Source: Endozoicomonas sp. G2_2 (GTDB lineage Bacteria > Pseudomonadota > Gammaproteobacteria > Nevskiales > Salinisphaeraceae). Taken from it: DNA of 64,000 nucleotides. Numbering within the stretch: position 1 is the stretch's first letter; each line of letters starts with the position of its first letter. The notes under the pieces were generated by a model. The model did not search any database, was not told the DNA's origin, and saw only the letters and a list, made by a program, of their open reading frames with translations. Both the position numbers and the translations under genes were made by a program. Below are positions 13,065 through 37,649 of the stretch, one piece after another. Location of the stretch: assembly GCF_017744135.1 (NCBI RefSeq), contig NZ_JAGHQU010000002.1:248001-312000 (forward strand), in the 5' to 3' direction.

Positions 13065-13105
13065 GTTCCAGCCGACATTAGCGCCTGCATCGACCACTGC
13101 CAACT

Positions 13106-21640: not shown

Positions 21641-21985
21641 ATGATCGTTCGGAATGGCCGTTTCCAGCAGCTCATCGCCGTGCTGCTCGTAACGCTTGTG
21701 GCCGTCAGCGCCCAGGCGTGGGCGAGCCACGTCGATTGGCCTGCGCCCCAGGCCGGCGATCATGCCCACGTCGACGTTTCCGCGCTCGACGGCGCCGATG
21801 CGCATATCGACTCGGCCGAGACCACGCACAGCGACCACTGCTCGCATGGTGCCGCCCACCTGCTGGGCCTGCGTTCACACGCCGAAGATGTCGATTTCGC
21901 CGGGTCGGTGCCGCATCGCGCCGAGTGCGGCGACCGCTATACCAGTCTGGCGCACCCGCCCCTGATTGATCCGCCCATCGCCTGA
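21641..21985 (+). CDS. czcI: CzcI-like small metal-responsive periplasmic protein (native copy)
   Basis: The 114-residue protein has a signal peptide ending at AQAWA and a mature part with many His residues, including a SDHCSHGAAHLLG segment. It resembles the CzcI family, small secreted proteins that precede czcC and influence czc expression. A second, clearly related copy lies at 23256-23591, sharing SAQAWASHVDWPA and LIDPPIA. The ATG at 21641 is the start aligned with that copy; an upstream in-frame start exists but would lose the signal peptide. It is intact, yet the operon it once led is broken just downstream. Confidence 0.8.
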   Translation: MIVRNGRFQQLIAVLLVTLVAVSAQAWASHVDWPAPQAGDHAHVDVSALDGADAHIDSAETTHSDHCSHGAAHLLGLRSHAEDVDFAGSVPHRAECGDRYTSLAHPPLIDPPIA

Positions 21986-22052
21986 ACCGTCGTTCTCCGG
22001 CGCATCGCACCGCGACGCGTCGTTTTCGGATTCAACGCGATGAGGATCAATC

Positions 22053-22229
22053 ATGTCCCTGCGTCATACGACGACAGGCACGACCGTCATCGGTCTGTGC
22101 CTGCTTTGGCTTGCGGCGCCCTGTGCTGCCGTAACCCAGATACCCCAACCACTCACGCTCGATGCGGCCCTGTCGTGGGCCGGCGAGTACAACCCCGGCG
22201 TGCGCGCCGCGCGTCGAGCTGTTACGTAG
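22053..22229 (+). pseudogene. czcC: 5' remnant of native czcC, truncated by the island
   Basis: This 58-codon fragment encodes a signal peptide and the start of an outer-membrane efflux factor. Its residues VTQIPQPLTLDAALSWAGEYNP align with VTQIPQPLTLNAALNWASEYNP of the island czcC at 23653. Similarity stops at about position 22215, after which a stop codon comes within five codons. The missing rest of about 375 codons is not found elsewhere in the window. It lies 67 bases after native czcI, the same arrangement as in the island copy. Confidence 0.9.
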
Positions 22230-22396
22230 TTCTGGACCAAGTTCTATGCAGTGTTATAACTAAGCGGAAGACTGGTAGCGGACAACATCCTATTTGCCGC
22301 GTTCCAATTGGATCGATCAGCCTTATCGTACAAGACCATATGATTGATAGCGGCGCGACTAAATCGCCTAGTTGGGTTATGCACAATCCCATTCGG

Positions 22397-23068
22397 CTAG
22401 CTGGCGCTAGATATGTGCCAAGGCTTCGGTTGCCAGCCGGAACAGACATAGGCCGCCCCCCAGAAGAGGCTTTCGCATTCGAATTGCGTAAAGTGTCGCT
22501 TGATCGCCTCAGCGGGTCGCCGGTGAACAATATCGGAGGTTACGCCCGCCGGACGATTGAAGAAAACACCCAACTGCCCGAGCCATTTCGGCCACCGATC
22601 GGGCCATTGCAGTTCGAAGTTAGCAATACGTCCATGCGCCGGGAGCCCGGTAGCTATACACTCGATCAGGGTTTCGTAGCTGGCCACCGTTGAGAGCGCG
22701 AGCGTAGCCAATACGGCGTCTGCGTCATGGATCCGGTAGGTCGTCATGTCGGCCGCGACAAGCTCAACATTTAGCCAGCCCGCTCGTTCGACTCGCCGTC
22801 TGGCGACGCTTAGCATTTCAGGCGTCAGGTCTACGCCAATGATACGCCCGCGGGGACCCACCTTTTCGTGAAGGTGCTTGAAATTTAGACCCGTACCACA
22901 CCCTAGATCCACCACTGTCTCGCCGGCTAGTAAGTGGAGGCGGGATACAGCCTGTCTACGGTAATGGTCGATTCGAAGACCGAACGCGCGATAGAACCAC
23001 AGTCCACCGTCATAGAAAGGTGCCAAGCGAGCATAGCGTTGTCGAAATTCTTCTTTATTAAGAGCCAT
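22397..23068 (-). CDS. Class I SAM-dependent methyltransferase
   Basis: The 223-residue protein has the SAM-binding motif VVDLGCGTG at about residues 53-61, followed by IIGVDLTPEML, which binds the SAM ribose. The N-terminal RYARLAPFYDGGLWFYRAFG stretch resembles UbiE/phospholipid methyltransferase-type small-molecule enzymes. The substrate cannot be told from sequence. It is transcribed away from the island czc operon across a 187-base divergent region. It is the leftmost gene of the island, close to the left junction, and its base composition matches the rest of the island. Confidence 0.82.
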   Translation of the reverse strand: MALNKEEFRQRYARLAPFYDGGLWFYRAFGLRIDHYRRQAVSRLHLLAGETVVDLGCGTGLNFKHLHEKVGPRGRIIGVDLTPEMLSVARRRVERAGWLNVELVAADMTTYRIHDADAVLATLALSTVASYETLIECIATGLPAHGRIANFELQWPDRWPKWLGQLGVFFNRPAGVTSDIVHRRPAEAIKRHFTQFECESLFWGAAYVCSGWQPKPWHISSAS

Positions 23069-23241
23069 TGTAATGCGCCTCCTTCTGATACGTAGTGTGG
23101 TTCATAAAGCCGCAGTAACTTAGTCCTCCTAGGGTATTCGTCGCAGCTAGCAATCCAGCTAAACGGCCCGCGGGACGCAGCACACGTGTCGAAGGGCGAA
23201 TTACAGCGGTAGATGTTTGGCTCGCATTATCAGTTCTGTGG

Positions 23242-23247
23242 TACGCT
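23242..23247 (+). promoter_or_regulatory. Candidate extended -10 box of island czcI
   Basis: TACGCT preceded by TGG ends 8 bases before the ATG of the island czcI. It matches the position of the similar box upstream of native czcI. The surrounding 187-base divergent gap holds no gene. Confidence 0.35.
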
Positions 23248-23255
23248 AAAAACTT

Positions 23256-23591
23256 ATGCCGTTATCCTATGCCAATCTACAGCGACTTGTGGCGATAGTG
23301 CTCACAGTCATTGTGGCTTTAAGCGCCCAAGCGTGGGCGAGCCATGTAGATTGGCCGGCGTTCGACGGTGAGACGTACTCGCACGTAGAATCAACCGCCG
23401 TAGATAATGCCGATACTGGCGTTAGCGCGGACCATAATGACCACTGTAGCCATGCGTCCGCTCATTTAGTTGGGATACAAAGTGACGCGCCGGACATGGG
23501 GCTTCGTGGAATGTCGTCGCGTAACGGGCGTCATCGCGATCTCTATCGCAGCTTGGCCCACACCCCCTTAATCGATCCACCCATAGCCTGA
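23256..23591 (+). CDS. czcI: CzcI-like small metal-responsive periplasmic protein (island copy)
   Basis: The 111-residue protein has a signal peptide ending AQAWA and a His/Asp-rich mature region with DHNDHCSHASAHLVG. It aligns along its length with the native copy at 21641, with identical ends LIDPPIA but diverged middle and codon use. CzcI proteins are thought to modulate czc induction in the periplasm. It leads the complete czcICBA operon of the island. No ribosome binding site precedes the ATG, and the candidate -10 box is only 8 bases away. Confidence 0.8.
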   Translation: MPLSYANLQRLVAIVLTVIVALSAQAWASHVDWPAFDGETYSHVESTAVDNADTGVSADHNDHCSHASAHLVGIQSDAPDMGLRGMSSRNGRHRDLYRSLAHTPLIDPPIA

Positions 23592-23652
23592 ATCTTCTTC
23601 GCCGGGCGCTGCTTCATTGCAGGCGCCTCTTCTATTGCGATGAGGATTCACA

Positions 23653-24951
23653 ATGTATTTCCCCCGTTTTCTCCCGGGCAAAGCTGCCTGTGGACTTTGC
23701 ATGCTATGGGTTTCGCTGTCCGCCTCCGCGGTCACGCAGATACCTCAACCTCTGACTCTCAACGCGGCCCTGAATTGGGCGAGCGAATATAATCCGACGC
23801 TGCGTTCGGCTCGTCTGCGTATTCAACGCCTCGGTGGCGAGGCTATTCACGCGGATGTCCCTGTCCCATCTAATCCGCGCTTGGAACTGGAAGCAGGCCA
23901 GCGCGATCAGCCGAACGGCTCAAGCACCGACATCGGTATCCAGCTCAGCCAAGAATTCTGGATAGCCGGCCAAGGCGGTCTACGCGCAGACGCTGCGACA
24001 AGTAGGTTGGGCGCCGCTCGAGCTGATTACGATTTCCTGGCAGCCACGACGACGGCACGCGTGCGTGCCGCGTTCCTTTCTGTCTTGGTCGCGGAGCAGG
24101 CAGTAAACACCGCCGAGCGCGTCGTTGATACCAACGAGCAGCTCGAGACTTATGCCAAGAAGCGTCTTAACGCAGGCGCGGGTACCCGAATCGAATCCAA
24201 TGCGGCACGTCTTGGGTTGCAGCGAGCACGTGCGTTCGCCGCCGCGGCCCGGGATGCGGCGACCCAAACTCGACTTGAACTCAAGGACCTGCTTGCGATC
24301 GATCCCACGCGTCGGCTCGCCATTCAGGGAGATCTGAGTTTTGCGCTGCTCGATATGCCAAATCGTGATCGCTTGTTGGCGCGTGCCGTCGAGCGGCGCA
24401 CGGACTTGCAGGCCGCTGCGTCGCGCGTGATTGCCGCACGGAAAGAATTGTCACTAGCCAATCGCGAAATCATACCGAACCTCACCGTGTTCGGTTTTTA
24501 CCGCGAAGAAGCGGGTGGTCGTGACAAAGGCGGCTCGGATATTACTGGCGGCGGTATCGGTTTCGAGCTGCCGCTGCTGGATCGCTATGAAGGCGAGCGC
24601 CAGATTGCGACTGCGGAGCTAGCGCAGGCCCAGCTCGATCAGGACAACCTTCAGCGCGAGGTTCGACTTCAAGTGCTTTCGGCCATCAGCGCATATGACG
24701 CCGGACGAGAACGAGCAGATGCGTTGAGTGATGCGGTTTTGGAGGCCGCGGAGAGTTCTCTCGAACTCACCCGGCGCTCATTCGCAGCCGGCAAGGTCGG
24801 GGCAACCGCGATCACGTCTGCCCAGAACAACCTATTTGACGTGCGTCGCGATTATCTCGACGCGCTCGGAGCGCTGGTTACGGCCGGTACCGATCTCGAG
24901 CGCGCCACGGGTGGCTTGCTCGTGATGGACAGCCGCGGAGCATCGCAATGA
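23653..24951 (+). CDS. czcC: Outer-membrane efflux channel CzcC (TolC family)
   Basis: The 432-residue protein has a signal peptide (about 1-26) and two outer-membrane efflux repeats. The first begins LTLNAALNWASEYNPTLRSARL, and the region after residue 220 repeats the pattern, as in TolC-type trimers. It forms the outer-membrane exit of an RND heavy-metal pump. The ATG is preceded by GAGGAT. Its last bases overlap the czcB start by ATGA, so translation is coupled. It is complete, in contrast to the native fragment at 22053. Confidence 0.92.
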   Translation: MYFPRFLPGKAACGLCMLWVSLSASAVTQIPQPLTLNAALNWASEYNPTLRSARLRIQRLGGEAIHADVPVPSNPRLELEAGQRDQPNGSSTDIGIQLSQEFWIAGQGGLRADAATSRLGAARADYDFLAATTTARVRAAFLSVLVAEQAVNTAERVVDTNEQLETYAKKRLNAGAGTRIESNAARLGLQRARAFAAAARDAATQTRLELKDLLAIDPTRRLAIQGDLSFALLDMPNRDRLLARAVERRTDLQAAASRVIAARKELSLANREIIPNLTVFGFYREEAGGRDKGGSDITGGGIGFELPLLDRYEGERQIATAELAQAQLDQDNLQREVRLQVLSAISAYDAGRERADALSDAVLEAAESSLELTRRSFAAGKVGATAITSAQNNLFDVRRDYLDALGALVTAGTDLERATGGLLVMDSRGASQ

Positions 24952-26300
24952 ACAAACATGAACTCATGAGTTATTTCCGAATTCCCACACTACTGCTCTT
25001 TGCCGCGCTCTTGCTGACGGGCTGTGATTCTTTCAGTGCCGGAGCCGACAATTCACGAACCAGCGAAACGTCCAGACAGCCAGCAGAACGCGGCGAACAT
25101 AACGGCCATGACGAAGCCGGGCATGCCAGTGATGAACACGATGACGTCGAAAAAGGCGAACTTGGGTCTGACCACGCTGAAGGCGAAAGTGGCCATGACG
25201 GGCACGGGGAAGAAAATCCGGACAGCGTTAAGCTCAGCGCGGAGCAGTTTCAGCAACTCGACATCGCAATTGGCCAGGCCGAAAGCGGTACAGCGAGTGC
25301 GTCGATCCAAGCGCCAGCGACGCTACATTTCGACGCCGACCGCGTCGCTCGTGTGGGGCCGCGACTGCAAGCCAAGGTAGTCAAAGTAACGGCGGACCTT
25401 GGTGAAGCAGTATCGCGTGGTGAAACACTTGCAGTACTCGATAGTGTCGCCTTAGGCAAGGAAAAGGCGGCATATCTAACAGCGGCCGCGCGCTTTAACA
25501 CGCGCCAGGCCGCCTACGCGAGAGACCGCAAATTGGCTGCGGATCAGATCGTGAGCGATTCGGATCTCGCTGAGTCTCGTGCCGCATACGAACAAGCAAA
25601 GGCGGAGCGACGTGCGAAGCGTGCCGAACTCAAGCTTTACGGCCTCGACAATGCGGCGGTCGATGCAATTCGCAGTGGTGGGGACGAGCCTTTGTCGCGA
25701 CTTGAGTTGGTTGCGCCCCGCGACGGCGTTATCGCGAAACGCGATCTGGTTGCTGGCCAAACACTTGGTGCTAACGAAACACCGATCCATGTCGTCGATA
25801 ACACACGGATGTGGTTGATGATCGATGCTGCGGAGCAAGCGCTGCCGTACTTAAAAAAAGGTCAGAAAGTGAGTTTCACGGTACGACCATTGCCGGATGA
25901 AAGCTTTATAGGGGTGATCGACTGGATCTCGCCCCAGCTCGACGAACAGGCCAGAACGGTGCGTGTGCGTGCCGTCGTCGAAAACCCTGATGGTTTGCTT
26001 AGAGCCGGCATGTTTGCCGATGCCGATATCGACGCCGGGGCGTCTAGCGGTAAGCGCTCACGTATAGCGCTTGTTCCCGTGGATGCAGTGCAACAAATCG
26101 GTGAGCGCGAAGGCGTGTTTCTGCCAGCTGGACCCGAGGGCGCTTACACGTTTCAACCGGTAAGCACCGGCTCAGAAAATCAAGGCCAGGTAGAAATCCG
26201 GCAGGGGATTCAAGCTGGCGACACCTTGGTTGTGCGCGGCGCATTCGATCTGAAAGCTGCGCTTACCGCCGGTGGCCGTAGCGCCGCACACAGCCACTAG
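24948..26300 (+). CDS. czcB: Periplasmic adaptor lipoprotein CzcB (RND membrane fusion protein)
   Basis: The 450-residue protein has a lipoprotein signal with lipobox LLTGC near residues 23-27. A His/Asp/Glu-rich segment (about residues 40-90, with HNGHDEAGHASDEHDD) follows and may bind metal ions. The barrel-sandwich, alpha-hairpin and beta-barrel domains of membrane fusion proteins come next, including RLELVAPRDGVIAKRDLVAG and MWLMIDAAEQALPYLKKG. It links the inner-membrane pump CzcA to CzcC. The gene overlaps czcC and lies 9 bases before czcA. Confidence 0.92.
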   Translation: MNKHELMSYFRIPTLLLFAALLLTGCDSFSAGADNSRTSETSRQPAERGEHNGHDEAGHASDEHDDVEKGELGSDHAEGESGHDGHGEENPDSVKLSAEQFQQLDIAIGQAESGTASASIQAPATLHFDADRVARVGPRLQAKVVKVTADLGEAVSRGETLAVLDSVALGKEKAAYLTAAARFNTRQAAYARDRKLAADQIVSDSDLAESRAAYEQAKAERRAKRAELKLYGLDNAAVDAIRSGGDEPLSRLELVAPRDGVIAKRDLVAGQTLGANETPIHVVDNTRMWLMIDAAEQALPYLKKGQKVSFTVRPLPDESFIGVIDWISPQLDEQARTVRVRAVVENPDGLLRAGMFADADIDAGASSGKRSRIALVPVDAVQQIGEREGVFLPAGPEGAYTFQPVSTGSENQGQVEIRQGIQAGDTLVVRGAFDLKAALTAGGRSAAHSH

Positions 26301-26309
26301 GAGGGCGCC

Positions 26310-29300
26310 ATGATTAACGCAATTATTCGCCTGGCGATGGCGAACCGGCTCATGGTGCTCGTCGCGGTTTTCGCGCTGGCAATCGGCGGCTATTTCTCGC
26401 TGCGTGCACTACCAGTGGATGCTTTCCCGGACGCGACGCCAGCTCTCGTACAGGTATATACCGCGAGCGAGGGGCTGTCGCCGGTGGACATTGAAACGTT
26501 GGTCTCCTATCCGATTGAGATCAGCATGTACGGATTGCCCGGTCTCGAAAAAGTACAGTCCACGTCCATTTTCGGGCTATCGCGGGTTGACGTCTACTTT
26601 GAAGACGGCACGGATATCTATTTTGCCCGACGGCTCGTGAACGAGCGGCTTTCGGAAGCCCGTCGCAACATCCCAAGTGGCCTAGGTGAGCCACAACTCG
26701 GTCCTATCACGACAGGACTTGGTCGGATTCTCATGTATACAGTCGAGAATGAGGGAGGCGCGGACTATTCGCTTACAGAAAGACGTACAGCCCAAGACTG
26801 GCTGATCAAACCACAGCTGCGTACGGTCGATGGTGTGACTGGCGTGCTCTCGATCGGTGGTTACGAAAAGCAGTATCAAGTCCGCCTGGACATGAGTGCG
26901 ATGACGGCCCGCGGCTTGACGCCGGCCGACGTTCGCGAAGCGCTACAGCGCAACAACCGAAACGTCGGCGCTTCATTCATCGAGCGCGGCGGCGAGGAAT
27001 ACATTATCCGCGGGTATGGTTGGGTCTCTTCGGGCGAGCAGGGTTTGTCTGATCTGCGCAACACCCGAGTAGACACGCGCAATGATCAGCCGGTTTATAT
27101 CCGAGATATCGCCGAAGTCAGCTACGGGCGAGCCATTCGACGTGGTGCAGAACTCGCCAACGGCGAAGAATCTGTTGGCGGTTACGTTCTCAAGCTGATC
27201 GGAACGGATACCCAGCGCGTCCTCGAGGATACGAATGCAAAGCTCGAGGAAATCAATAAGTCGTTGCCTAACGGTATGGTCGCCAAAGTCTACTACTCTC
27301 AGGCCGAGCTAGTAGACAAGGCGATCAATACGGTCGTCGAAGCGCTTTTAATTGGCGCCGTACTAGTCCTGATATTGCTGTACTTGTTCCTGGGCAACTT
27401 GAGATCGACACTCATTGTCGTGTCGAGCGTACCGCTGTCGCTACTTGTAGCATTCATTGCTATGCGCGTGTCCGGCTTGTCGGCGAACTTGATGAGCCTC
27501 GGCGGGTTGGCAATCGGCATTGGGATGATGGTCGACGGCTCGGTCGTCATGATCGAAAACATCTTCCGGCATTTTGAGGAACAGGACCTCAAGACCGCGA
27601 GCATGGCGGATTTGATTGGTGCCGCGGCTCGAGAAGTTGGGCGACCGATCGTTTTCGCGGTCGCCATCGTGATCATTGTCTTCCTTCCGTTGTTCACCCT
27701 GCAGGGCGTCGAGGGAAAACTCTTCTCGCCCATGGCTTACACGATTAGCTTCGCGTTGGCCGCAGCTCTGTTGCTATCCCTCACACTCGTACCCGTGCTG
27801 GCAATACTGGCATTCCGACGTGTTACCACGATGCGGGAGCCGCGGTTTGTGTCGTGGATGAAGGCCGGTTACCGCCCGATGCGCGACGCCGCGCTAAAAG
27901 CACCGATCGTTGTAGTAGGGACAGCGCTAATCTTATTCATTGCGAGTCTCGCTGTTTTTCCGCAATTGGGTACTGAGTTCATTCCGACCCTACGGGAAGG
28001 CACATTCATGGTTCGCTCCACACTGCCACCCGGGGCGAGCTTGGATTCCGCGATTGCGTACGGCAAGCGGATACAAGATACCGTCGGAGAATTCGACGAA
28101 GTTACCGGCGCCTATTCACGTATCGGTCGTGCTGAAGTCGGCGGCGATCCCGAACCGGTCAATGTGGTCGCAACGACCATCAACCTGAAACCCCTTGATG
28201 CCTGGCGAAGTGGGCGTTCTTACGAAGGTCTTCAGAACGCGATGTCCGAGCGCCTTCAAGCGCGCGTTCCCGGGTTGGCGAATAACTTTTCTCAGCCGAT
28301 CCAGCTTAGAACCGATGAATTGCTCTCAGGCGTTCAAGCACAGCTCGTGGTCAGTATCTTCGGCGATGACCTCGACAAGTTAGCTGAGGTCGGCCAGCAG
28401 GTCGCCGAACTCGCGCGTAATACCACCGGTGCTGTGGATGTGCGTGTCCAGCAGCAGGGCGGCAAACAGCAGATCGTCATAAAGCCAGACCGCGAAGCCT
28501 TGTCGCGTTATGGAATTAGCGTGGACGACGTTTTGAACACCGTGTCCGTAGGGGTCGGGGGAGCTTCCGTCGGCCAGGTCTTCGACGGCGTGCGGCGGTT
28601 CGATATTTTCCTGCGGCTGCAGGCGAACCAACGTGAGCGGATCGATGCGATTCGAGACCTGAATCTTCGGACACCTGGCGGCGCGTTGATTCCGCTGTCA
28701 CGAGTGGCGAACGTGGACGTCTATACCGGTCCCAAGCAGATATCACGATCGAACGCCAGTCGACGTCTGTATGTGCAGATGAACGTTCGCGGGCGGGACA
28801 TGGGCGGCGTCGTAAACGATCTGCGTGCCGGTATCGATCGCGACATCGATATGCCGCCCGGTTATTTCGTTGACTTCGGCGGCCAGTTCGAGAACCAACA
28901 AAGGGCCATGAAGCGCCTTTATCTCGTCGTACCCGTCACGATGGCGCTGATCTTTTTGTTGCTCTACAGCGCATTCTCGAGTCTGCGCTATGCGGCGCTG
29001 ATCTTTTTGAACGTTCCGTTCGCAATCATCGGCGGTATCTTCACGCTCTGGTTGTCGGGACTGTATCTATCCGTGCCCGCTGCTGTTGGCTTTATCGCGG
29101 TGTTCGGCGTAGCCGTTCAAAACGGGGTCGTGCTGGTTTCCTACATCAATCAGTTGCGTGATCACGGTATGGAGCTCGATGAGGCGGTAAGCACCGGCGC
29201 AGAACATCGGCTGCGCCCCGTACTCATGACCGCGCTGACAGCGATCCTGGGACTAATCCCGCTGCTCATGGCTAACGGTATCGGATCGAACGTGCAACGG

Positions 29301-29414
29301 CCGTTGGCCGCAGTCGTAATCGGCGGCCTCGTGACTTCAACGCTCCTGACGTTATTGGTATTGCCTGCCGTGTACCACTGGTTCGCCGAACCACGGCGCG
29401 AAGTCGAGCTGTGA
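26310..29414 (+). CDS. czcA: Heavy-metal RND efflux pump CzcA-like (HME family)
   Basis: The 1034-residue inner-membrane proton antiporter has 12 expected membrane spans and two large periplasmic loops. It starts MINAIIRLAMANRLMV with GGAGGG upstream. The fourth-helix signature is GIGMMVDGSVVMIEN, with Asp409 and Glu416 matching CzcA D408 and E415. The first Asp of the CzcA triad (D402) is a glycine here (Gly403). The metal specificity may therefore differ from classical Co/Zn/Cd CzcA. Its C-terminus is strongly similar to the native remnant at 35741-36088, for example VLMTALTA and IGSNVQRPLAAVVIGG. Confidence 0.93.
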   Translation: MINAIIRLAMANRLMVLVAVFALAIGGYFSLRALPVDAFPDATPALVQVYTASEGLSPVDIETLVSYPIEISMYGLPGLEKVQSTSIFGLSRVDVYFEDGTDIYFARRLVNERLSEARRNIPSGLGEPQLGPITTGLGRILMYTVENEGGADYSLTERRTAQDWLIKPQLRTVDGVTGVLSIGGYEKQYQVRLDMSAMTARGLTPADVREALQRNNRNVGASFIERGGEEYIIRGYGWVSSGEQGLSDLRNTRVDTRNDQPVYIRDIAEVSYGRAIRRGAELANGEESVGGYVLKLIGTDTQRVLEDTNAKLEEINKSLPNGMVAKVYYSQAELVDKAINTVVEALLIGAVLVLILLYLFLGNLRSTLIVVSSVPLSLLVAFIAMRVSGLSANLMSLGGLAIGIGMMVDGSVVMIENIFRHFEEQDLKTASMADLIGAAAREVGRPIVFAVAIVIIVFLPLFTLQGVEGKLFSPMAYTISFALAAALLLSLTLVPVLAILAFRRVTTMREPRFVSWMKAGYRPMRDAALKAPIVVVGTALILFIASLAVFPQLGTEFIPTLREGTFMVRSTLPPGASLDSAIAYGKRIQDTVGEFDEVTGAYSRIGRAEVGGDPEPVNVVATTINLKPLDAWRSGRSYEGLQNAMSERLQARVPGLANNFSQPIQLRTDELLSGVQAQLVVSIFGDDLDKLAEVGQQVAELARNTTGAVDVRVQQQGGKQQIVIKPDREALSRYGISVDDVLNTVSVGVGGASVGQVFDGVRRFDIFLRLQANQRERIDAIRDLNLRTPGGALIPLSRVANVDVYTGPKQISRSNASRRLYVQMNVRGRDMGGVVNDLRAGIDRDIDMPPGYFVDFGGQFENQQRAMKRLYLVVPVTMALIFLLLYSAFSSLRYAALIFLNVPFAIIGGIFTLWLSGLYLSVPAAVGFIAVFGVAVQNGVVLVSYINQLRDHGMELDEAVSTGAEHRLRPVLMTALTAILGLIPLLMANGIGSNVQRPLAAVVIGGLVTSTLLTLLVLPAVYHWFAEPRREVEL

Positions 29415-29735
29415 GGAGGGGCTGATCATGGAGGTAACACCCACCCATATGGCGCAAGTCCCGCTCGACCAGGTGATTTCAGGGCAAGCGCCCTCGATTG
29501 ATTCGCAGCGGAGTACTGCGAAGAATTCTCACGAATACATCGGCCGAGTGAATGGTGGTCTCGTTTGGAGCTACAGGCATAGTTTAGCGATCTATGCGCT
29601 AACTAAATATAAGCCCAATATCATAGGGGCCATTGGGTATAGGTCACTTGTTAGTCAGGGTGTTCCACGCTGCAGGCACCCAGAGTTTGCGGGTGAGCCA
29701 CAAAACGAAGTCGCAAACGTTTGGAGGTGGTCGCG
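29415..29735. other. Gap between czcA and eptA, no convincing gene
   Basis: These 321 bases contain a 104-codon frame from 29428 with a good GAGGAG upstream. Its product has no recognisable domain or signal peptide and overlaps the start of eptA in another frame. It may be a decayed gene. No clear terminator was seen, so eptA could be read through from czcA. Confidence 0.4.
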
Positions 29736-31388
29736 ATGGTAGCGGCCAAATCCTTCGACCATCGGGTTTCGCGCCTGCGTGTGACGACCTCCGTGCTCGC
29801 ATTGGCCGTGGCGCTGTTTCTAGTGACTACTGCCAATAACTCATTTTGGAGTGCGGCGGCAAGTGCGGCAGATATTTCCTGGCGGGGGAACTTTGGGTTT
29901 TTCGCCGCAATCTTCGTATTTCTTGTCGCCGCTTTCACTTTGGCTATCGCACCATTTGGCTTACGTTTTCTTTTTAAGCCGTTTATTTCCGTGTTACTCG
30001 TCCTGGCATCTGTTAATAGCTATTTCATGGATACCTACGGTGTTGTGATTGATGACGGAATGCTGCGCAACACGATACAAACCGACCCTAGGGAGGTTGA
30101 CGGTTTATTGAGCCCGGTTTTGTTTTGGCATGTGTTATGGGCCGGAGTTTTGCCGGCGTTGGTTGTGTGGTGGGTTCCCGTGCGCTATGCGACTTTTCCT
30201 AGACAATTGGGTCGGCAAATATTGACGATGGCGCTAGCTTTAGCAGTAGCCGGGGCGGCACTTTATAGCCATTACAAAGAATTTTCACTAGTAGGGCGCG
30301 AAAATCGAAATTTACGTTATTTGATTAATCCGAGTTATTCCATTTACTCGGCTGGAAAGTTGCTGGCTGCCGAGTTAAGTGCCGGTGAGGCGGCACTTCG
30401 GCCATTGGGCCGCGACGCCTACCAACGACAGCATAGCTCACCCGGCGGCAAGCCAAGGCTCGTGGTTTTCGTTCTAGGGGAAACGGTGCGTGCTCATAAC
30501 GCTACCTTGGAAGGTTATGAGCGAAGGACCATGCCGCTCATGGCCCAAGAAGAGATTGTCAAGTTTGACAGCGTATATTCCTGCGGCACTGCTACTGCAG
30601 TGTCTCTGCCCTGTATGTTCTCGCGCCAAAACCGCAGCAGTTATGACGAGTTCGTGTCGGATAACAGCGAGAATTTATTAGATGTCCTGAAACACGCCGG
30701 GGTACGTGTGCTATGGCGTGAAAACAACTCCGGCTGCAAGGGCGTTTGCGCCAGGGTAAAAACACAAAACACAGCTCAGATGGACGTGCCTAATTATTGC
30801 AATGAAGATGGCTGTTTTGACGAAATTTTATTGTATCGGCTGGATGAATCGCTAAACGAGCCCTCGAGAGACACTTTCATTGTGCTTCATCAACAGGGCA
30901 ACCACGGGCCTGAATACTACAAACGGTACCCGCCTGAGTTTCGCAAATTCCAGCCTGAATGCCGTAGCAATCGCCCGCAGGATTGTAGCCGCCAAGAGCT
31001 GATAAACGCCTACGACAACGCCATTTTATATACCGACTTCGTGCTCTCTAGGGTTGTGAAGTTTCTAAAAAGGAACTCCGATCGCTATGCGAGCGCGATG
31101 ATTTATATGTCCGACCATGGCGAGTCGCTTGGCGAGAGCGGCATTTACCTTCACGGCCTACCGTACTTAATAGCGCCGCATGAACAAACCCATGTGCCGC
31201 TGATGGTTTGGACCTCGTCTGATTTTAGGAAGGGGCGGGGACTCGAGCGCAAGTGCATGAGCCAAGTGAATGATCAAGAGTATAGCCAGGATAATTTGTT
31301 CGACACGGTTCTAGGTCTGTTCGCGGTACAGACACAGGTCTACCGGCCCGGACAAGACATCTTCGCAGCATGTCCGCCACCGCCTTGA
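29736..31388 (+). CDS. eptA: EptA-like lipid A phosphoethanolamine transferase
   Basis: The 550-residue inner-membrane enzyme has about five N-terminal membrane spans and a periplasmic sulfatase-fold domain from about residue 215. Metal and active-site features include FVLGETVRAHN, the acceptor Thr in SCGTATAVSLPCMFS, and SDHGESLGE. Multiple cysteines suit the disulfides of this family. It transfers phosphoethanolamine from phosphatidylethanolamine to lipid A, lowering surface charge and often raising resistance to cationic peptides and polymyxins. GGAGGTGG precedes the ATG at 29736. It sits between czcA and nhaA in the island, an unusual neighbourhood. Confidence 0.9.
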   Translation: MVAAKSFDHRVSRLRVTTSVLALAVALFLVTTANNSFWSAAASAADISWRGNFGFFAAIFVFLVAAFTLAIAPFGLRFLFKPFISVLLVLASVNSYFMDTYGVVIDDGMLRNTIQTDPREVDGLLSPVLFWHVLWAGVLPALVVWWVPVRYATFPRQLGRQILTMALALAVAGAALYSHYKEFSLVGRENRNLRYLINPSYSIYSAGKLLAAELSAGEAALRPLGRDAYQRQHSSPGGKPRLVVFVLGETVRAHNATLEGYERRTMPLMAQEEIVKFDSVYSCGTATAVSLPCMFSRQNRSSYDEFVSDNSENLLDVLKHAGVRVLWRENNSGCKGVCARVKTQNTAQMDVPNYCNEDGCFDEILLYRLDESLNEPSRDTFIVLHQQGNHGPEYYKRYPPEFRKFQPECRSNRPQDCSRQELINAYDNAILYTDFVLSRVVKFLKRNSDRYASAMIYMSDHGESLGESGIYLHGLPYLIAPHEQTHVPLMVWTSSDFRKGRGLERKCMSQVNDQEYSQDNLFDTVLGLFAVQTQVYRPGQDIFAACPPPP

Positions 31389-31419
31389 CAGGTCGGCAGG
31401 TTTGTTAGGAGTGCCACCC

Positions 31420-32772
31420 ATGTCTGATGTGATTTCAGATCAGCATCCCCTGGCCGAGCGGCTGTTACGGCCCATACGGCGCTTCGCGGCGTATGGGCCA
31501 TCCAGCGGCATTGTTCTGGTTATGGCTACTGCGCTCGCGGTGCTATGGGCCAACTCTGCGGGATCGTTATTACCGGGCTACGCAGACTTTTGGAACACTG
31601 AACTTTCTCTTCGTCTGGGCGATGTAGAGCTGTCACTTTCGCTCCACGAATGGATCGATGAGGCATTGATGGCGCTGTTCTTCTTTCACGTCAGTCTCGA
31701 GGTGAAGTACGAATTTCTCAGCGGTGCTCTGTCCACCCGAGACAAAGCGGTCCTGCCAGTGGTTGCGGCGCTAGGCGGCATGCTAGCGCCAGTCGCAGTT
31801 TTTCTGATTCTTAACCTACCGGCGGGGGATCCCGGGGGATGGGCCGTACCAATGGCGACAGATGTTGCGTTTGCTATTGCGCTTCTCACCCTACTAGGCA
31901 AACGGGTGCCCGCGAGCTGGCGGGCATTCCTACTGGCACTTGCGGTTATCGATGACGTCGGCACGGTTGCCGTGATAGCCCTGTTCTATTCGGCGAAGAT
32001 CACCACTATCCCATTGCTCGTGGTGGCTTTCGGGCTAGCTCTCGTTTACGCGATGCGTCGTGCCGGGGTCCATGCATTTTTAGTTTATTGGTTGGTTGGC
32101 GCCGCAATCTGGCTCGCGATGGAGAAATCTGGCGTTCATCCGACCGTCGCGGGCGTCCTGCTCGGGTTCTTGACGCCGCTTTCCACGCCACGCCATACGC
32201 ATTCATACAATGAACAAGCCGCTGAACGCATTCCACACCTATTACGCGAAGCCCCATCCTCAAAACGTCGACTCCTAGAAGAACTGGAACGCGTTAGGCG
32301 AGGCGCATTATCGCCGCTGAATATCCTGCAACATCGGCTAGAGCCGTGGGTGTTATTCCTGATCATGCCGGCCTTCGCGCTCGCCAATGCAGGGGTTGAT
32401 CTGAGCGAAATTAGTCTCGCTGATAATGCCAGCCTTTGGGTTCTAGTCGGGAGCGGTGTCGGTCTGGTGGTTGGCAAGCCTCTTGGCATTGTAACGGCCG
32501 TACGTCTGGCGACCCTCTTGTCCCGAACAAAACTCCCGGATGGTCTCTCTTGGTCAGCTCTGACCGGTCTGGGGCTTCTCGCCGGCGTTGGTTTCACTAT
32601 CGCTTTATTCTTGACCAGCCTTGCGTTTACAGATCCGGCGATCGCATCGGCCGCACGCGTTGGCATTTTGGCTGGCTCCTTAATCGCCGCATTGGCGGGG
32701 CTGGGATTACTTTGGTTGGTTTTACACAAGAATGATGAAAATTGGGTAGCGCAGAGCGAAGACGTCGCGTGA
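31420..32772 (+). CDS. nhaA: Na+/H+ antiporter NhaA
   Basis: The 450-residue membrane protein has the NhaA hallmarks: MALFFFHVSLEVKYEFLSG, ATDVAFAIALLTLLG, and the paired ion-binding aspartates in ALAVIDDVGTVAVIALFY. The C-terminal half keeps the glycine-rich GLLAGVGFTIALFLTSLAF helix. It expels sodium in exchange for protons at alkaline pH. The ATG at 31420 follows TTAGGAG. The gene lies 31 bases after eptA, so the two may be co-transcribed. In a halophile it may complement the proton use of the Czc pump, which is inference. Confidence 0.93.
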   Translation: MSDVISDQHPLAERLLRPIRRFAAYGPSSGIVLVMATALAVLWANSAGSLLPGYADFWNTELSLRLGDVELSLSLHEWIDEALMALFFFHVSLEVKYEFLSGALSTRDKAVLPVVAALGGMLAPVAVFLILNLPAGDPGGWAVPMATDVAFAIALLTLLGKRVPASWRAFLLALAVIDDVGTVAVIALFYSAKITTIPLLVVAFGLALVYAMRRAGVHAFLVYWLVGAAIWLAMEKSGVHPTVAGVLLGFLTPLSTPRHTHSYNEQAAERIPHLLREAPSSKRRLLEELERVRRGALSPLNILQHRLEPWVLFLIMPAFALANAGVDLSEISLADNASLWVLVGSGVGLVVGKPLGIVTAVRLATLLSRTKLPDGLSWSALTGLGLLAGVGFTIALFLTSLAFTDPAIASAARVGILAGSLIAALAGLGLLWLVLHKNDENWVAQSEDVA

Positions 32773-32868
32773 GCTGGAACGTGATGACCGAATGACAGAG
32801 CAATTACGGTCACTATTCGCGACGACGGCTGACCTCTGTCAACTAAAGTTACCAAAAGGAGACAGACG

Positions 32869-33222
32869 ATGAAGGAAATCAAGGCTTACGTACGTGAAGT
32901 CATGCTCGAACAGGTGATTTCGGCGCTGGCTGATATTGACGACATACCCGGAATCGCGGTGGTGCATCTACGTGAATATGGCCACGTCCAGGACGGCAGC
33001 TTGAGGCGGGTCAAAATGGCCAAGCTCGAAATTGATGTGCCGGAGTCGCTTGCGACGACCGTCGTAGACGCGATATTGGCAAGCGCACGTACAGGCGACG
33101 GCCACCCCGGTGATGGAAAAGTCTTCATATCAGATTTGCGGGAGGCCATTCGTATAAGCGACGGGCAACGTAACGAAGGGGCGGTGCAAATTTCGTCGAA
33201 ATCGGGAGGCCCAGATGAGTAA
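32869..33222 (+). CDS. PII-like (GlnB superfamily) protein in metal-efflux operon
   Basis: The 117-residue protein aligns with PII proteins over its length: KEIKAYVREVMLEQVISAL at the start and GDGKVFISDLREAIRISDGQRNEGA at the end. The T-loop is short and lacks the usual uridylylated tyrosine context, so it is not a standard nitrogen regulator. PII-like proteins near CzcA or CDF exporters are known and are presumed to sense metals or nucleotides. AAGGAG lies upstream, and the stop overlaps the start of the CDF exporter gene, implying coupled expression. Confidence 0.82.
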   Translation: MKEIKAYVREVMLEQVISALADIDDIPGIAVVHLREYGHVQDGSLRRVKMAKLEIDVPESLATTVVDAILASARTGDGHPGDGKVFISDLREAIRISDGQRNEGAVQISSKSGGPDE

Positions 33223-34153
33223 GCATGAGCACGGCGGTCATAGCCATGGCAATGCAGGTAGCACGAAACTGCTTATCATATCGCTGATATTTACGACTGC
33301 ATACGCTGGCGTCGAGGTAGTCGGTGGTATTTGGGCCAACTCACTGGCCCTGATTGCCGATGCGGGCCATATGATCACCGACTCCTTATCTCTCGGAATC
33401 GGCGCTTTTGCAGCATGGCTAAGTCAGCGTCGCGCTTCAAAAACCCTTACGTATGGATATGCACGCGCTGAGGTTATAGGAGCGCTCGTCAACGTTCTGT
33501 TCATGCTGGGTATTGTGGTCTGGATTGTTTTTGCCGCATTTGAACGACTTGCGAATCCAGAGGAAGTTGGCGGAACGACCGTTATGGTTGTCGCTTTCAT
33601 CGGCTTACTCGTAAATATCGCCGTCGCGTGGATTCTGATGCGGGGCGAAAAAAACATGAACGTGCGGGCCGCGTTGTTGCACGTAATGGGTGACTTGGCG
33701 GGTTCTGTAGCGGCGTTGCTGGCGGGCTTCATCGTTTACCTCACCGGCTGGCTGCCGATAGACCCGTTGCTTTCGTTATTAATCAGCCTTCTGATTGGTT
33801 TTGCGAGCATAAATATTTTACGCGACGTCATGCGAGTCCTTATGGAGGGCTCACCTAGCGATGTGGATATTGACGAGTTGAAGCAGTCCATGGGCGAGAT
33901 TAGTGGTGTCGTTGAGGCGCACCATATTCACGTCTGGTCTCTATCGTCGAGTCGTCACGCCTTATCGGCACAAATCAAACTTGATGAGATAGGTGAATGG
34001 GATGCGGTCCTACCGCGACTACAGGCCCTGCTGGGTCGGCGCTTCGGCATTCAGCACAGCACGTTACAGCCGGAATCTGGCTCGCGCAGCATCCTTGAAA
34101 ATCGCGGCAAGAACGTTGATGGGAACGGTTCATCATGCTCAGGCAAGCTTTAA
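33215..34153 (+). CDS. czcD: Cation diffusion facilitator metal exporter (CzcD-like)
   Basis: The 312-residue protein starts with a His-rich MSKHEHGGHSHGN segment and has six expected membrane helices. The metal-binding motifs are ALIADAGHMITD in helix 2 and HVMGDLAGS in helix 5, the HxxxD arrangement typical of zinc-type CDF proteins. The cytoplasmic C-terminal domain (from about residue 210) keeps HHIHVWSLSS. It exports Zn2+ and related ions from cytoplasm to periplasm, from which CzcCBA could remove them. GGGAGG precedes the start, which overlaps the PII-like gene. Confidence 0.93.
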   Translation: MSKHEHGGHSHGNAGSTKLLIISLIFTTAYAGVEVVGGIWANSLALIADAGHMITDSLSLGIGAFAAWLSQRRASKTLTYGYARAEVIGALVNVLFMLGIVVWIVFAAFERLANPEEVGGTTVMVVAFIGLLVNIAVAWILMRGEKNMNVRAALLHVMGDLAGSVAALLAGFIVYLTGWLPIDPLLSLLISLLIGFASINILRDVMRVLMEGSPSDVDIDELKQSMGEISGVVEAHHIHVWSLSSSRHALSAQIKLDEIGEWDAVLPRLQALLGRRFGIQHSTLQPESGSRSILENRGKNVDGNGSSCSGKL

Positions 34154-35163
34154 GAACTACATCGACGCTCTTACTTTTTGTATTTATGTTGACCCCAGTT
34201 TTATCTCGCGCTCAAGAACCTGAAATCACGGTCAGTAGCAAAGCTTATAAGAGACAGTTCAAAACCATGCTCCAGCGCGCCGAGGAGGGCGATGCGAACG
34301 CCCAGAATTCCGTTGGCGGTGCCTTTGCCATGGGCGACGGTGTCGTAGAGGATGATGAGGCCGCGTATCGTTGGTTGCGCAAAGCGGCAGAACAAGGCCA
34401 CGCTGCGGCTCAATACAATCTATTCCTCTTGTCGACTCAGAAGAGGGATTCGGAGAATACGCTCGAAGCCCCAGTCAAATGGTTACAAAGGGCCGCCAAT
34501 CAAGGTGTCCTTCAAGCGCAATTTCGTCTCGCAGAGTTTTACCGACAAAGCCGTGTTAAGCACAAAAAACGGCGGGAGCGCGCGGCCATGTATTACGCCA
34601 TGGCCGCTAAACAAGGTCACGCGTCTGCGCAATTTTATTTGGGCTGGTGCTACGACAAGGGTGTTGGGGTCACTCAGAATGAGTCGAAAGCGGCGCGGTG
34701 GTACTTGAAAGCTGCGAAAAAGGGGCAGGTCGATGCCCAAGTGAATCTAGCCGTAAACTATATCGACGGTCGAGGGGTCCAGAAAAGCCAAGCGCAAGCA
34801 CGGAGATGGTTTTTGCGGGCAGCGCAACAAAATTCTGCGATCGCACAATATAACCTCGGCAAACTGTCTCAGGCTCGTGCGAGTTCACGGGGTAACATCA
34901 TCGAGGCATATGTCTGGACATCGTTGGCAGCCGAACAAGGACTTGGTGCGGCGATTCGCGAACGCGAGCTTCTCCGGAGTTTGATATCACCTTCACAATT
35001 GAGCCGAGCACAAGCGCGCGTTCGACGTTGGAGTAAGATTAATTCCGACAACGCTCAATTTGACCTTCAGCTGGAAAGCCGGCGTAGTTTTCCGGTCACT
35101 GAACCAATATCGGGGCTCGAAGCGCTGTTGCCTAAAAAGGGCAAAGCTGACAGCCAGCGATAG
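34135..35163 (+). CDS. Secreted Sel1-repeat protein (island copy)
   Basis: The 342-residue protein has a signal peptide (about 1-26) and five to six Sel1-like repeats of about 36 residues, with motifs such as AAYRWLRKAAEQGHAAAQYNL and AARWYLKAAKKGQVDAQVNLA. Such repeats form protein-binding superhelices. Its role is unknown. The start overlaps the end of the CDF exporter gene by 19 bases. A second Sel1 gene follows the native czcA remnant at 36210, so a Sel1 gene may be a regular companion of this czc locus. Confidence 0.85.
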   Translation: MLRQALRTTSTLLLFVFMLTPVLSRAQEPEITVSSKAYKRQFKTMLQRAEEGDANAQNSVGGAFAMGDGVVEDDEAAYRWLRKAAEQGHAAAQYNLFLLSTQKRDSENTLEAPVKWLQRAANQGVLQAQFRLAEFYRQSRVKHKKRRERAAMYYAMAAKQGHASAQFYLGWCYDKGVGVTQNESKAARWYLKAAKKGQVDAQVNLAVNYIDGRGVQKSQAQARRWFLRAAQQNSAIAQYNLGKLSQARASSRGNIIEAYVWTSLAAEQGLGAAIRERELLRSLISPSQLSRAQARVRRWSKINSDNAQFDLQLESRRSFPVTEPISGLEALLPKKGKADSQR

Positions 35164-35740
35164 CGCGAGAGCGGAAAAAATTGATTTTTTAATCCGATAA
35201 AATCTGGGATGGGCCCCCACGGATTTCTTAAGATGGGCTGTTACACATGCCGAACCAAGTTCGGTGGTTTCAGACACCCTAAGCGCATGAAGGCGCTCTA
35301 TCTGAGCACACTCGTTTTAAGCACCCGTTGGCCGAGTCGATGCTCGAGGCCGAAGGTACGCACGAGCTGGTGCGGTGCATTCGCTTGTGTGGACGTTGCG
35401 AACGAAGTTCCCTGGCCGTCGTTGCGATGAGTCGTTGCAACGAGTGCAAGCGCGCTTCGAAACCGGCAGGCTTTGATCACCGCGCGCGATTACGTGCCGA
35501 AATTCCGCGCCTGCCACGGCGCTACCTTAAGGACGACCGGGAAGATGATCTATCTCAACCGTCAGCACTCCGGCTACGTCGTCAATCAAAAGCGTGTCGA
35601 ACGACACTATTCCGAGCAACGTCTAACGTACCGATCTTTGGTCAATAGTCGTTTTTCGCATCTAACTACTACGCGTGGAAGGCCGCAAAGACGGCCATTC
35701 GAGTCTTTGGACTCTTCGTAAAATATTATTCAACCGAAGT
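35164..35740. other. Right end of the island, non-coding or decayed
   Basis: About 580 bases without an intact gene. The first part has an A6-TTGA-T6 weak hairpin (35175-35190). The rest is a patchwork of short frames, including an IS3-type transposase remnant. Shortly before the junction there are the small inverted repeats GGCCG-CGGCC (35682-35697) and GAGTC-GACTC (35701-35714). Confidence 0.5.
35540..35650 (+). pseudogene. IS3-family transposase (OrfB) remnant
   Basis: The conceptual fragment HSGYVVNQKRVERHYSEQ followed by RLTYRS resembles the conserved VNHKRVxRLYREEGL segment of IS3-family OrfB transposases. Nothing recognisable as the catalytic DDE core remains on either side. It lies about 100 bases from the right junction and is the only trace of a mobile element in the island. 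Identification rests on one motif. Confidence 0.5.
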
Positions 35741-36088
35741 ATGGCTACAGCGGCGATGGTCTTTACTGCCGTGTTCGGTGTCGCGGTACAGAACGGCGTG
35801 GTGATGGTGTCCTATATCAACCAGCTGCGACAGCAGGGCACGTCTATGGCCGACGCGGTGCGTATCGGCGCCGAGCATCGCCTGCGCCCGGTCCTGATGA
35901 CCGCGCTGACCGCGGTCCTCGGGCTGATTCCGCTGCTGCTTGCCGACGGCATCGGCTCCAACGTGCAGCGGCCGCTCGCGGCGGTGGTGATCGGCGGGCT
36001 CATGACTTCGACGCTGCTCACACTCATCGTGCTGCCCAGCGTCTATCGCTGGTTCGCCGAACCGGACGCGCCGGCGCACCGAGCCTGA
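35741..36088 (+). pseudogene. czcA: 3' remnant of native czcA
   Basis: The last ~110 codons of an HME-type RND pump remain, with GC-rich codon use like the flanking chromosome. Residues FGVAVQNGVVMVSYINQLRQ and EHRLRPVLMTALTAVLGLIP match the C-terminus of the island CzcA at 29100-29400. Similarity starts at about 35750-35765. A usable ATG at 35741 has no ribosome binding site. The piece is the counterpart of the czcC fragment at 22053, so the two once belonged to one operon. A GC-rich hairpin at 36095-36120 follows. Confidence 0.9.
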
Positions 36089-36094
36089 GCGATA

Positions 36095-36120
36095 TGCCCG
36101 GCGCCGCGTTGCGCCGGGCA
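36095..36120 (+). terminator. GC-rich hairpin after the native czcA remnant
   Basis: TGCCCGGCGC (36095-36104) and GCGCCGGGCA (36111-36120) are perfect complements around a six-base loop. No T-run follows, so termination would be weak or factor-aided. It probably marks the end of the old native czc operon. Confidence 0.5.
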
Positions 36121-36209
36121 TACACGACTGTCGTAAGATCGAAAGACCGGGCACTCGCGCGCTGCCGCGATGTCTACTCCCGAAACCGATCTCAACCGAC
36201 GGCCCCGCC

Positions 36210-37061
36210 ATGACTGCCATTTTTCGCGCTACCGTACTCGCGCTCGGCGTGACGAGCATGGTCTATTCCATCAATGCGTCCGCGGCGCCGGCCTATAGCA
36301 CCGATGTGGCGCGCGCCATGCAGGCGGGCGACTACGGCGAGGCGCGATCACTGCTTCGCGAGCGTGCCGAAGACGGCGATCCCGAAGCACAGCTCAACCT
36401 CGGCGTGCTGCTGGCCGCCGGACGCGGGGCGGCGCCGAACCTGCAGGAGGCGGCGCGCTGGTATCGCGAAGCCGCGGAACAGGGCAACGCCGCAGCCCAG
36501 AACAATCTCGGCCAGGCCTATCTGCAAGGCCAGGGCGTCGGCATGCAGCCCGACACCGCTGCACGCTGGTTTCGCGCGGCCGCACAACAGGGCGATGCCG
36601 GCGCGCAATACAACCTTGGCACCCTGTATGCCCAGGGCCGCGGCGTGACCCGCGACATGGCCCAGGCGGTCGACTGGTGGCGCAAGGCGGCCGAACAGGG
36701 CGTGATCGCGGCCCAGTACAACATGGGCGCCGCCAGCGCCGATGGTGTGGGCACGAAACAAAGCGACGCCGCGGCGGTTTACTGGTTTGCCAGTGCGGCC
36801 CAGGCGGGCAATACACGTGCCCGACAGGCCCTGGACGATCTTCTGCCCGGACTGCCGACCAAACAGGTGGCGGCGAGCAACGCGCGGGTGCGGGGTGAGG
36901 GCAACACCAGCGCCGAGGTCATCACGACGGTGGATGCGCCGCAACGTCTTCCGGTACTCGGACACACGCGCGACGGCTGGACGATGATCTATCTCGCCGA
37001 CCGGGGACGACTGGGCTGGATCGCCGACAGCCTGCTCAGCGAGCAGGCCAGCGCGCGCTAG
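36210..37061 (+). CDS. Secreted Sel1-repeat protein with C-terminal SH3-like domain
   Basis: The 283-residue protein has a signal peptide (about 1-26), about four Sel1 repeats (for example AARWYREAAEQGNAAAQNNLGQAYLQG) and a C-terminal bacterial SH3-like domain (from about residue 215) with RGEGNTSAEVITTVDAPQRLPVLG and GRLGWI. Bacterial SH3 domains often bind cell-wall peptides. It lies directly after the native czcA remnant, with GC-rich codon use like the chromosome. The function is unknown; a periplasmic scaffold is a fair guess. Confidence 0.86.
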   Translation: MTAIFRATVLALGVTSMVYSINASAAPAYSTDVARAMQAGDYGEARSLLRERAEDGDPEAQLNLGVLLAAGRGAAPNLQEAARWYREAAEQGNAAAQNNLGQAYLQGQGVGMQPDTAARWFRAAAQQGDAGAQYNLGTLYAQGRGVTRDMAQAVDWWRKAAEQGVIAAQYNMGAASADGVGTKQSDAAAVYWFASAAQAGNTRARQALDDLLPGLPTKQVAASNARVRGEGNTSAEVITTVDAPQRLPVLGHTRDGWTMIYLADRGRLGWIADSLLSEQASAR

Positions 37062-37070
37062 ACGCCGGCT

Positions 37071-37499
37071 CTAGCGCTGCGGGCGTGCCTCGAACCGCGC
37101 CAGCGGGTCGCCCTGGCGGTCGAACAGCGTGAGCATGTCGTCGTCGACCCGTGCGGTGGTCGTGCGCTCCAGGGCGTGCATGAGCGCTTCTTCCTGTGCC
37201 ATGGCGTTGGCACAGTAGCGGCGTGTGCTGGCAAGCGAATCGAAGCGCAGATTCTCGCCGCCACCACTGTAGGCGCCGTTGAGCCGGTTGCAGCCGGCAA
37301 ACCCCTCGACCCGCTGGCTGTCGCCGTGCATCAGCAGGTAGGCATCGCGACGCATGGCGTCACGATCGACCGCCTGCTGGCCGACCTCGACCAGCTGCCA
37401 TTCGGTGTCGGCCAGGCGGACGAAGTCGGGCGTACCCGCGCAGGCGCCGAGCACCAGCGTGACGAACACCGCAGAGCAGAAAAGACGGATAGCGTGCAT
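37071..37499 (-). CDS. META-domain (HslJ-like) lipoprotein
   Basis: The 142-residue protein has a lipoprotein signal with lipobox LGAC near residue 18 and one META domain, shown by LADTEWQLVEVG and VEGFAGCNRLNGAY. The family includes HslJ, a heat-induced outer-membrane protein linked to novobiocin tolerance. I start it at the ATG at 37499 just before the signal peptide; other starts up to 42 bases upstream are possible. The gene faces the Sel1 gene end to end. Confidence 0.8.
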   Translation of the reverse strand: MHAIRLFCSAVFVTLVLGACAGTPDFVRLADTEWQLVEVGQQAVDRDAMRRDAYLLMHGDSQRVEGFAGCNRLNGAYSGGGENLRFDSLASTRRYCANAMAQEEALMHALERTTTARVDDDMLTLFDRQGDPLARFEARPQR

Positions 37500-37649
37500 G
37501 AGGCCTCGCATTGGGCGTAGTTGAAACCGGTCCGCCCCCAAGCGTAGCGGTCACGCGGGCTCGATTGCACGCAATCGGCCGTCGCAACGCGTCCGGGCGT
37601 ACCCGCATGGCGTAGAATCGCGCGGCATTTCGCAGCGCCGTTTTCCGTC

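Follow-up and report, generated by a model that had tools for sequence, protein, structure and literature searches.

We analyzed a 64,000-nt window from the genome listed as Endozoicomonas sp. G2_2 (contig NZ_JAGHQU010000002.1, positions 248,001 to 312,000), which GTDB places in the Salinisphaeraceae, and examined its locus for the Czc metal pump. At this locus, a metal-resistance block exchanged among species has probably displaced a native czc operon in situ. The block comprises a methyltransferase gene, czcICBA, eptA, nhaA, genes for P-II, CDF, and Sel1 proteins, and a decayed transposase (Table 1). It occupies the same locus in a second salt-loving species, Salinisphaera shabanensis, and the swap is therefore not private to the genome under study.

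The window lies on contig C22 (410 kb) of a genome of 3.73 Mb, hereafter G000. It was compared with a set of 14 genomes of the genus, its own included, one per species; S. shabanensis E1L3A is G005 in this set. The czc context was read in G003, G004, G007, G008, G011, and G012, with G001, G002, G006, G009, G010, and G013 left out. The G007 contig begins within czcB, the left neighbor of its czc genes thus lying outside the sequence, and the context of G008 covers 20 kb only.

Remnants of a native operon enclose AT-richer DNA

Between two native-type remnants lie about 13.5 kb of AT-richer DNA that include a czcICBA operon of their own. To the left, czcI is complete and czcC is reduced to its first 54 codons, the alignments of this remnant to the native czcC of G003 and G011 ending at 22210 and 22213, respectively. 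To the right, the C-terminal end of czcA is 84 to 85% identical in nucleotides to the native czcA of G012 and G011. The GC content is 67.5% in czcI and the czcC remnant, 67.3% in the czcA tail, and 65% in the flanks; it is 47% in the left filler, 53 to 58% in the island genes, and 53% in the region of the transposase remnant. At third codon positions (GC3), the transketolase and MATE genes reach 82.0 and 85.4%, the native czcI 78%, and the czcA tail 84.7%, and the island genes range from 53 to 66%.

A first-pass annotation of this DNA had proposed a native czcI with 54 codons of czcC on the left, about 110 codons of the czcA C terminus on the right, and some 13.5 kb of foreign, AT-richer DNA with a full czcICBA operon in between. 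All three proposals were borne out by alignments and domain matches, and the composition changes expected at 22215 and 35750 are present (47 to 58% GC against 67 to 68%). The annotation had also ascribed host codon use to the fragments. GC3 agrees with this for czcI and the czcA tail and less so for the 54-codon czcC remnant, whose value of 68.5% is under that of host genes, between host and island values. Judged by their length, the remnants are unlikely to be functional, since czcC stops after 54 codons and the tail covers 110 of the roughly 1034 codons of the transporter.

A comparison with relatives, set beforehand as a check, revealed the uninterrupted operon. In G011 and G012, czcI, czcC, czcB, and czcA follow each other next to the transketolase gene without stops, and about 3 kb separate czcA from a MATE gene farther downstream. 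The same arrangement of the four genes next to transketolase is seen in G004, except that its czcC match contains one stop. In S. shabanensis, the transketolase gene adjoins a truncated czcI. G003 harbors stop-free native czcI, czcC, czcB, and czcA at the corresponding place, but without transketolase beside them, and G008 carries czcICBA with no transketolase gene in the 20 kb around it. In G003 (C27:80001-100000, L069), the native czc genes directly follow DNA homologous to positions 10697 to 13101 of the window; both the window and S. shabanensis have a transketolase-aldolase cluster in between, which G003 lacks there.

By the coordinates of G011 (L074, 4251 to 9463), the native operon portion missing from the window amounts to about 5.2 kb, in agreement with the 5 kb estimated at first. 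No other native-type czcA was found among the 13 czcA matches in the genome itself, which consist of the island copy, an island-family copy on contig C10 (95% amino acid identity), the tail, and ten matches at 38% or less. Because of this, the native middle appears to be lost. Taken from gene order and alignments, these data support a native czcICBA as the ancestral state of the locus in Salinisphaera, with its middle lost in G000.

The right edge ends within czcA

The right remnant had been taken for the chromosome's own DNA, and this view was not confirmed. A search with positions 35165 to 36209 found S. shabanensis contig C4 identical across query bases 1 to 910, i.e., up to 36074, where the two genomes part. 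Over about 2.45 kb, between positions 33626 and 36074, the two sequences show no difference; this stretch takes in the transposase remnant and the czcA tail. In the pairwise alignment the first difference comes after CCGAACCGGA, 11 bases upstream of the stop codon; the last common base is 36074 in pairwise alignments and 36066 in a mafft alignment, owing to gap placement. The final codons are still homologous (EPDAPAHRA in the window, EPDTPVHL in S. shabanensis), and beyond them similarity ends. Past the boundary, the window continues with its own flank of Sel1, META, and MATE genes. S. shabanensis continues with a resistance-nodulation-division (RND) gene in the opposite direction, which also follows the native czcA in G003 and G007 at 80 to 81% identity.

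The native DNA of the two genomes is much less similar. Their left flanks are 82% identical, with a longest identical run of 56 bp and a best 325-bp window of 93.8%; for the MATE flank, the values are 71%, 31 bases, and 83%. A 325-base tail at 100% identity, set against these flanks, argues for a recent import into one genome, the other, or both, and this is our best reading of the czcA tail. Likewise, the boundary at 36074/36075 is best read as the trace of a homologous crossover in the 3' end of czcA, in at least one species. The earlier claim that neither junction is a homologous crossover thus stands for the left edge and falls for the right one, where identity ends within czcA. The tail sits in an open frame of 137 codons (35675 to 36088) that starts in island DNA with 20-odd codons that do not belong to czcA; this tail-containing frame recurs in S. 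shabanensis, with 136 codons.

The left edge differs between the two species

In S. shabanensis, the island is found at the corresponding locus, spread over two contigs, C24 and C4. The last genes of C24 are transketolase, a truncated czcI, and the methyltransferase gene, the latter two being separated by a filler of about 190 bases peculiar to S. shabanensis. Homology of its czcI to the window stops at window position 21797, and the methyltransferase stretch (22397 to 23238) is 98.7% identical. The C24 break falls between the methyltransferase gene and czcI. CAGTTCTG is found at this break and again at the island start on C4, and it is single and uninterrupted in the window. Because of this, we infer that C24 and C4 are probably neighbors, with an insertion between them that duplicated 8 or 9 bp. 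At these contig ends (L121, 1 to 35; L066, 17960 to 17992), the repeated octamer CAGTTCTG is accompanied by imperfect inverted ends, as in an insertion sequence (IS).

The left fillers of the window and of S. shabanensis differ and show no mutual resemblance. Furthermore, the filler of the window (22216 to 22396) gave no match in its own genome, in the compared loci of relatives, or in the PLSDB plasmids. From this, the left joint appears to be illegitimate, or else eroded, and not the same in the two species.

Island copies in three species form a mosaic

The island copies in G000, G003, and S. shabanensis are a mosaic of long identical tracts. In a three-way alignment, the window equals G003 contig C5 over positions 24916 to 27465 and, bar two differences, over 28614 to 32102. 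S. shabanensis and G003 are 99.7 to 100% identical over about 32.2 to 33.4 kb, where the window differs by 5 to 17%. The longest identical runs were 2441, 2508, and 946 bases, whereas 300 shuffles yielded no more than 349, 286, and 210; the run shared by G000 and G003 is 2550 with all columns and 2508 once columns with N are removed. The shuffle control distributes differences evenly and demonstrates clustering only, not its cause.

In G003, the island core lies elsewhere (C5), and the native czc operon is retained. The outer parts of G003 C5 resemble contig C10 of G000 (about 91 to 100% per 250-base step, dropping toward the core) and its core resembles the window, with changeovers near czcC and near the CDF gene. 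C10 (1 to 45777; L124, L080, L026, and L027) and G003 C5 (L067 and L068) share an element that is metal-resistance-like by its genes and 93 to 98% identical outside the czc core, the core being merely 85% identical. In the czcA tree, the four copies of island type group together in a single clade (support of 1.000) and share 67 to 75% of their nucleotides with the other seven copies. Long stretches at 96% identity or more were found in 3 of 85 genomes of the order among the matches listed, namely G000 itself, S. shabanensis, and G003.

Plasmid origin was also considered and rejected, as positions 22216 to 36088 gave no megablast match in 72,556 plasmid records. In a distant-mode search with positions 29440 to 34160, 386 plasmid records matched partly and none over more than 80% of the query; 12 of the 386 fell in the 80 to 90% identity band, and the 20 listed had 65 to 71.5% identity over 4 to 9%.

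Proposed mechanism and its alternatives

The displacement may be pictured as follows. On the right side, the czcA tail of the block would have recombined homologously with the resident czcA, and on the left side, illegitimate joining would have deleted the middle of the resident operon. The joint between the transposase remnant and the czcA tail would be older; as the remnant adjoins the tail, we suggest that this joint was made once near an IS, in another lineage, and then carried along. The incoming island would restore the Zn/Cd/Co-type efflux removed by the swap and bring additional cargo.

In homology-facilitated illegitimate recombination, the second joint is illegitimate, often at microhomology, and recipient DNA is lost. 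At this locus, the homologous joint is visible, with identity ending within czcA and unrelated flanks beyond, the left edges share no homology, and about 5.2 kb are gone. The process may therefore be of this kind, perhaps acting on DNA taken up by transformation, and within the overall reading we propose this mechanism tentatively, at somewhat less than even odds. It has been described in three naturally competent species and is rare in Escherichia coli conjugation, according to one report (PMC3240628). Genes of the ComEC and DprA families were present in all four genomes in which they were sought, which permits DNA uptake and does not demonstrate competence.

Several observations count against this account. 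ComEC and DprA families are also found in 10 and 11 of 14 control genomes, and an IS-driven or conjugative route may have been used instead. No source of the left filler was found among the sequences compared, so that microhomology at this joint is conjectural, and the left junction of the window comes from a single assembly. Finally, the approximately unbiased (AU) test rejected none of four constrained placements of the tail (p of 0.08 to 0.53; row TAIL005 and the C-terminal columns were dropped), the tail being too short to place. The weaker criteria of bootstrap proportion (bp-RELL) and expected likelihood weight (c-ELW) exclude a grouping of the tail with the island copies. Either species may thus have been the donor or the recipient.

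Among the alternatives, a transposon- or integrase-borne island that inserted itself and whose ends have since decayed could account for the decayed transposase at the right end. We consider it improbable: the 11 intact island proteins (methyltransferase, CzcI, CzcC, CzcB, CzcA, small ORF product, EptA, NhaA, P-II, CDF, and Sel1) gave no integrase or transposase match in Pfam or NCBIfam (flanking direct repeats were not searched for), the window contains no tRNA, the transposase remnant is single, and the left ends differ between species. Two specific forms were rejected separately. A composite transposon is represented by one decayed transposase remnant only (35237 to 35619), with a left filler that resembles no compared sequence, and an integrative element with integrase and attachment site finds neither a tRNA in the window nor an integrase match among these 11 proteins, flanking repeats lying outside the search.

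The first-pass annotation had favored a private insertion plus deletion into a related operon, with two non-homologous junctions and a czcA tail belonging to the chromosome. Native operons in congeners and the composition breaks agree with its outline; its account of the right junction does not hold. In its favor, the filler at the left junction is unrelated, the island is set off from the tail by a transposase remnant, and the AU test does not reject a native placement of the tail. However, the right junction and the tail are 100% identical in S. shabanensis, whose right flank differs, and this already contradicts a private event unless contig C4 is contaminant or misassembled. We thus give this explanation little credit. 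A relative with the same gene order and no intact native czc had been named in advance as the finding that would speak against it; S. shabanensis is such a relative, and other relatives do keep the native operon.

If G000, G003, and S. shabanensis had vertically inherited a single swap from their common ancestor, after which the left edge eroded and G003 reverted, the same locus and block order in G000 and S. shabanensis would be explained, but this scenario is very improbable given an island at 96% with 100% tracts against a native flank at 82%, and the native czc genes of G003 at this place. An unrooted rpoB tree of 12 of the 14 genomes (G007 and G010 were omitted, as their rpoB matches are fragments) groups ((G003,G005),G000) apart from G011 and G012, with G003 as the sister of S. 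shabanensis (93%, support of 1.000). As this sister keeps the native czc genes, a swap derived from a common ancestor would call for additional reversals, and vertical inheritance is unlikely.

Beyond the displacement itself, the czc operons of Salinisphaera might be shared recombination arms of a genus-wide exchange system, an extension that we find rather doubtful. If it were true, metal-resistance cassettes with cargo such as eptA-nhaA would be traded among species between czc loci, whether allelic or not, with crossovers in czcC, in the CDF gene, and at the 3' end of czcA, and orphan czc pieces would act as landing pads for later swaps.

Gene content of the island

As predicted from their families, czcICBA together with the CDF and P-II-like genes would form an efflux set for Zn/Cd/Co. 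The P-II-family protein perhaps belongs to the metal-efflux-linked P-II group; one P-II subgroup is reported to cluster with czcABC (PMC7726332). The eptA and nhaA genes (29428 to 32772) are located between czcA and the P-II/CDF genes in the window, on G003 C5, and on S. shabanensis C4. They are absent from the C10 island copy of G000, and because of this distribution they look like an inserted cassette. A scan of genome contigs for the methyltransferase gave two loci, one in S. shabanensis (99% amino acid identity) and one archaeal (30%). Relatives of the island Sel1 gene, at 69% nucleotide identity, follow the CDF gene on C10 and on G003 C5. The transposase pair on C32 of G000 matches HTH_Tnp_1 (1.1e-26) and HTH_21/rve (2.1e-20), and we take the remnant in the island to be IS3-type from the domain pair of this relative; its own open piece matches HTH_21 alone, weakly (E of 0.06).

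Table 1. Features of the czc locus, in positions of the window
Feature	Position	Strand	Evidence
Transketolase, native left neighbor of the czc locus	19331-21412	-	Pfam Transketolase_N 2.1e-155
Native czcI, complete	21641-21985	+	67% nt identity to native czcI of G003, G011, G012; 49-55% aa
Native czcC remnant, first 54 codons	22054-22215	+	Aligned to native czcC of G003 and G011
Left filler, 181 bases, 47% GC; junction 22215/22216	22216-22396		
SAM-dependent methyltransferase	22397-23068	-	Pfam Methyltransf_25 3.4e-16
Island czcICBA	23256-29414	+	OEP, HlyD_D23, TIGR00914 matches
Island czcI	23256-23591	+	No Pfam/NCBIfam match; named from similarity to czcI of other operons
Island czcC	23653-24951	+	
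Island czcB	24948-26300	+	
Island czcA	26310-29414	+	98-100% nt to S. shabanensis C4 and G003 C5; 85% to C10 of G000
Small ORF in cargo cassette	29428-29742	+	No Pfam match
EptA-type phosphoethanolamine transferase	29721-31388	+	NCBIfam NF028537 4.6e-186
NhaA antiporter	31402-32772	+	TIGR00773 1.2e-107
P-II-like protein, 117 aa, overlaps CDF gene	32869-33222	+	Pfam P-II 1.9e-11
CDF transporter	33215-34153	+	Pfam Cation_efflux 1e-42
Sel1-repeat protein, last intact island gene	34135-35163	+	Pfam Sel1 4.7e-35
Decayed transposase remnant	35237-35619	+	66-76% nt to transposase pair on C32 of G000 and to G013 C36
Native-type czcA tail, ~110 codons + stop	35750-36088	+	Pfam ACR_tran 7.2e-36, profile positions 910-1020 of 1021
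Right recombination boundary	36074-36075		Last base identical to S. shabanensis; downstream DNA differs
Native right flank: Sel1 protein, META-domain protein, MATE transporter	36210-39005	+	Domain matches
META-domain protein, right flank	37071-37541	-	
MATE transporter, right flank	37650-39005	+	

Comparison with known systems

Xenologous gene displacement in situ is the replacement of native operon genes by a foreign homologue with the native neighbors kept. The window resembles it, and the native gene set is indeed found at the same locus in relatives (G011 and G012, and G004 with one stop); unlike in such displacement, remnants of the displaced operon persist at both ends and extra cargo is present. 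As described in one study (PMC4033161), replacement flexible genomic islands of aquatic prokaryotes likewise hold different alleles of the same general function at the same locus and involve homologous recombination at the island edges. These islands concern one species or close relatives and typically encode exposed surface structures, whereas the window involves different species (82% native identity), a metal pump, and one homologous edge only, the right one and not the left.

For the displacement of type VI secretion system (T6SS) effector modules in Vibrio cholerae, homology-facilitated illegitimate recombination has been proposed (PMC5361080). According to the same study, these modules, like the window, have one conserved anchoring arm, a non-homologous other end, and an orphan gene piece. 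The orphan immunity genes of Vibrio are thought there to be retained for use, whereas for the orphan czcA tail no use is evident other than that of a recombination arm.

We found no paper joining Salinisphaera, czcA, and horizontal gene transfer, subscription journals being mostly outside the search, and the INDIGO paper on the genome of S. shabanensis (PMC3855842) makes no mention of czc, genomic island, or horizontal. As far as the literature was searched, a right boundary defined to the base within a pump gene is new, as are an imported remnant of native appearance and the mosaic across three species. The locus offers a worked case of operon displacement in which one crossover can be read to the base, two species sharing the block and not the flanks. 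DNA of native-looking composition can be imported, which calls for caution when islands are called from GC alone. If czc genes are general recombination arms, metal-resistance cargo would cross species without a dedicated mobile element. Overall, the process fits known kinds, namely replacement islands and xenologous displacement.

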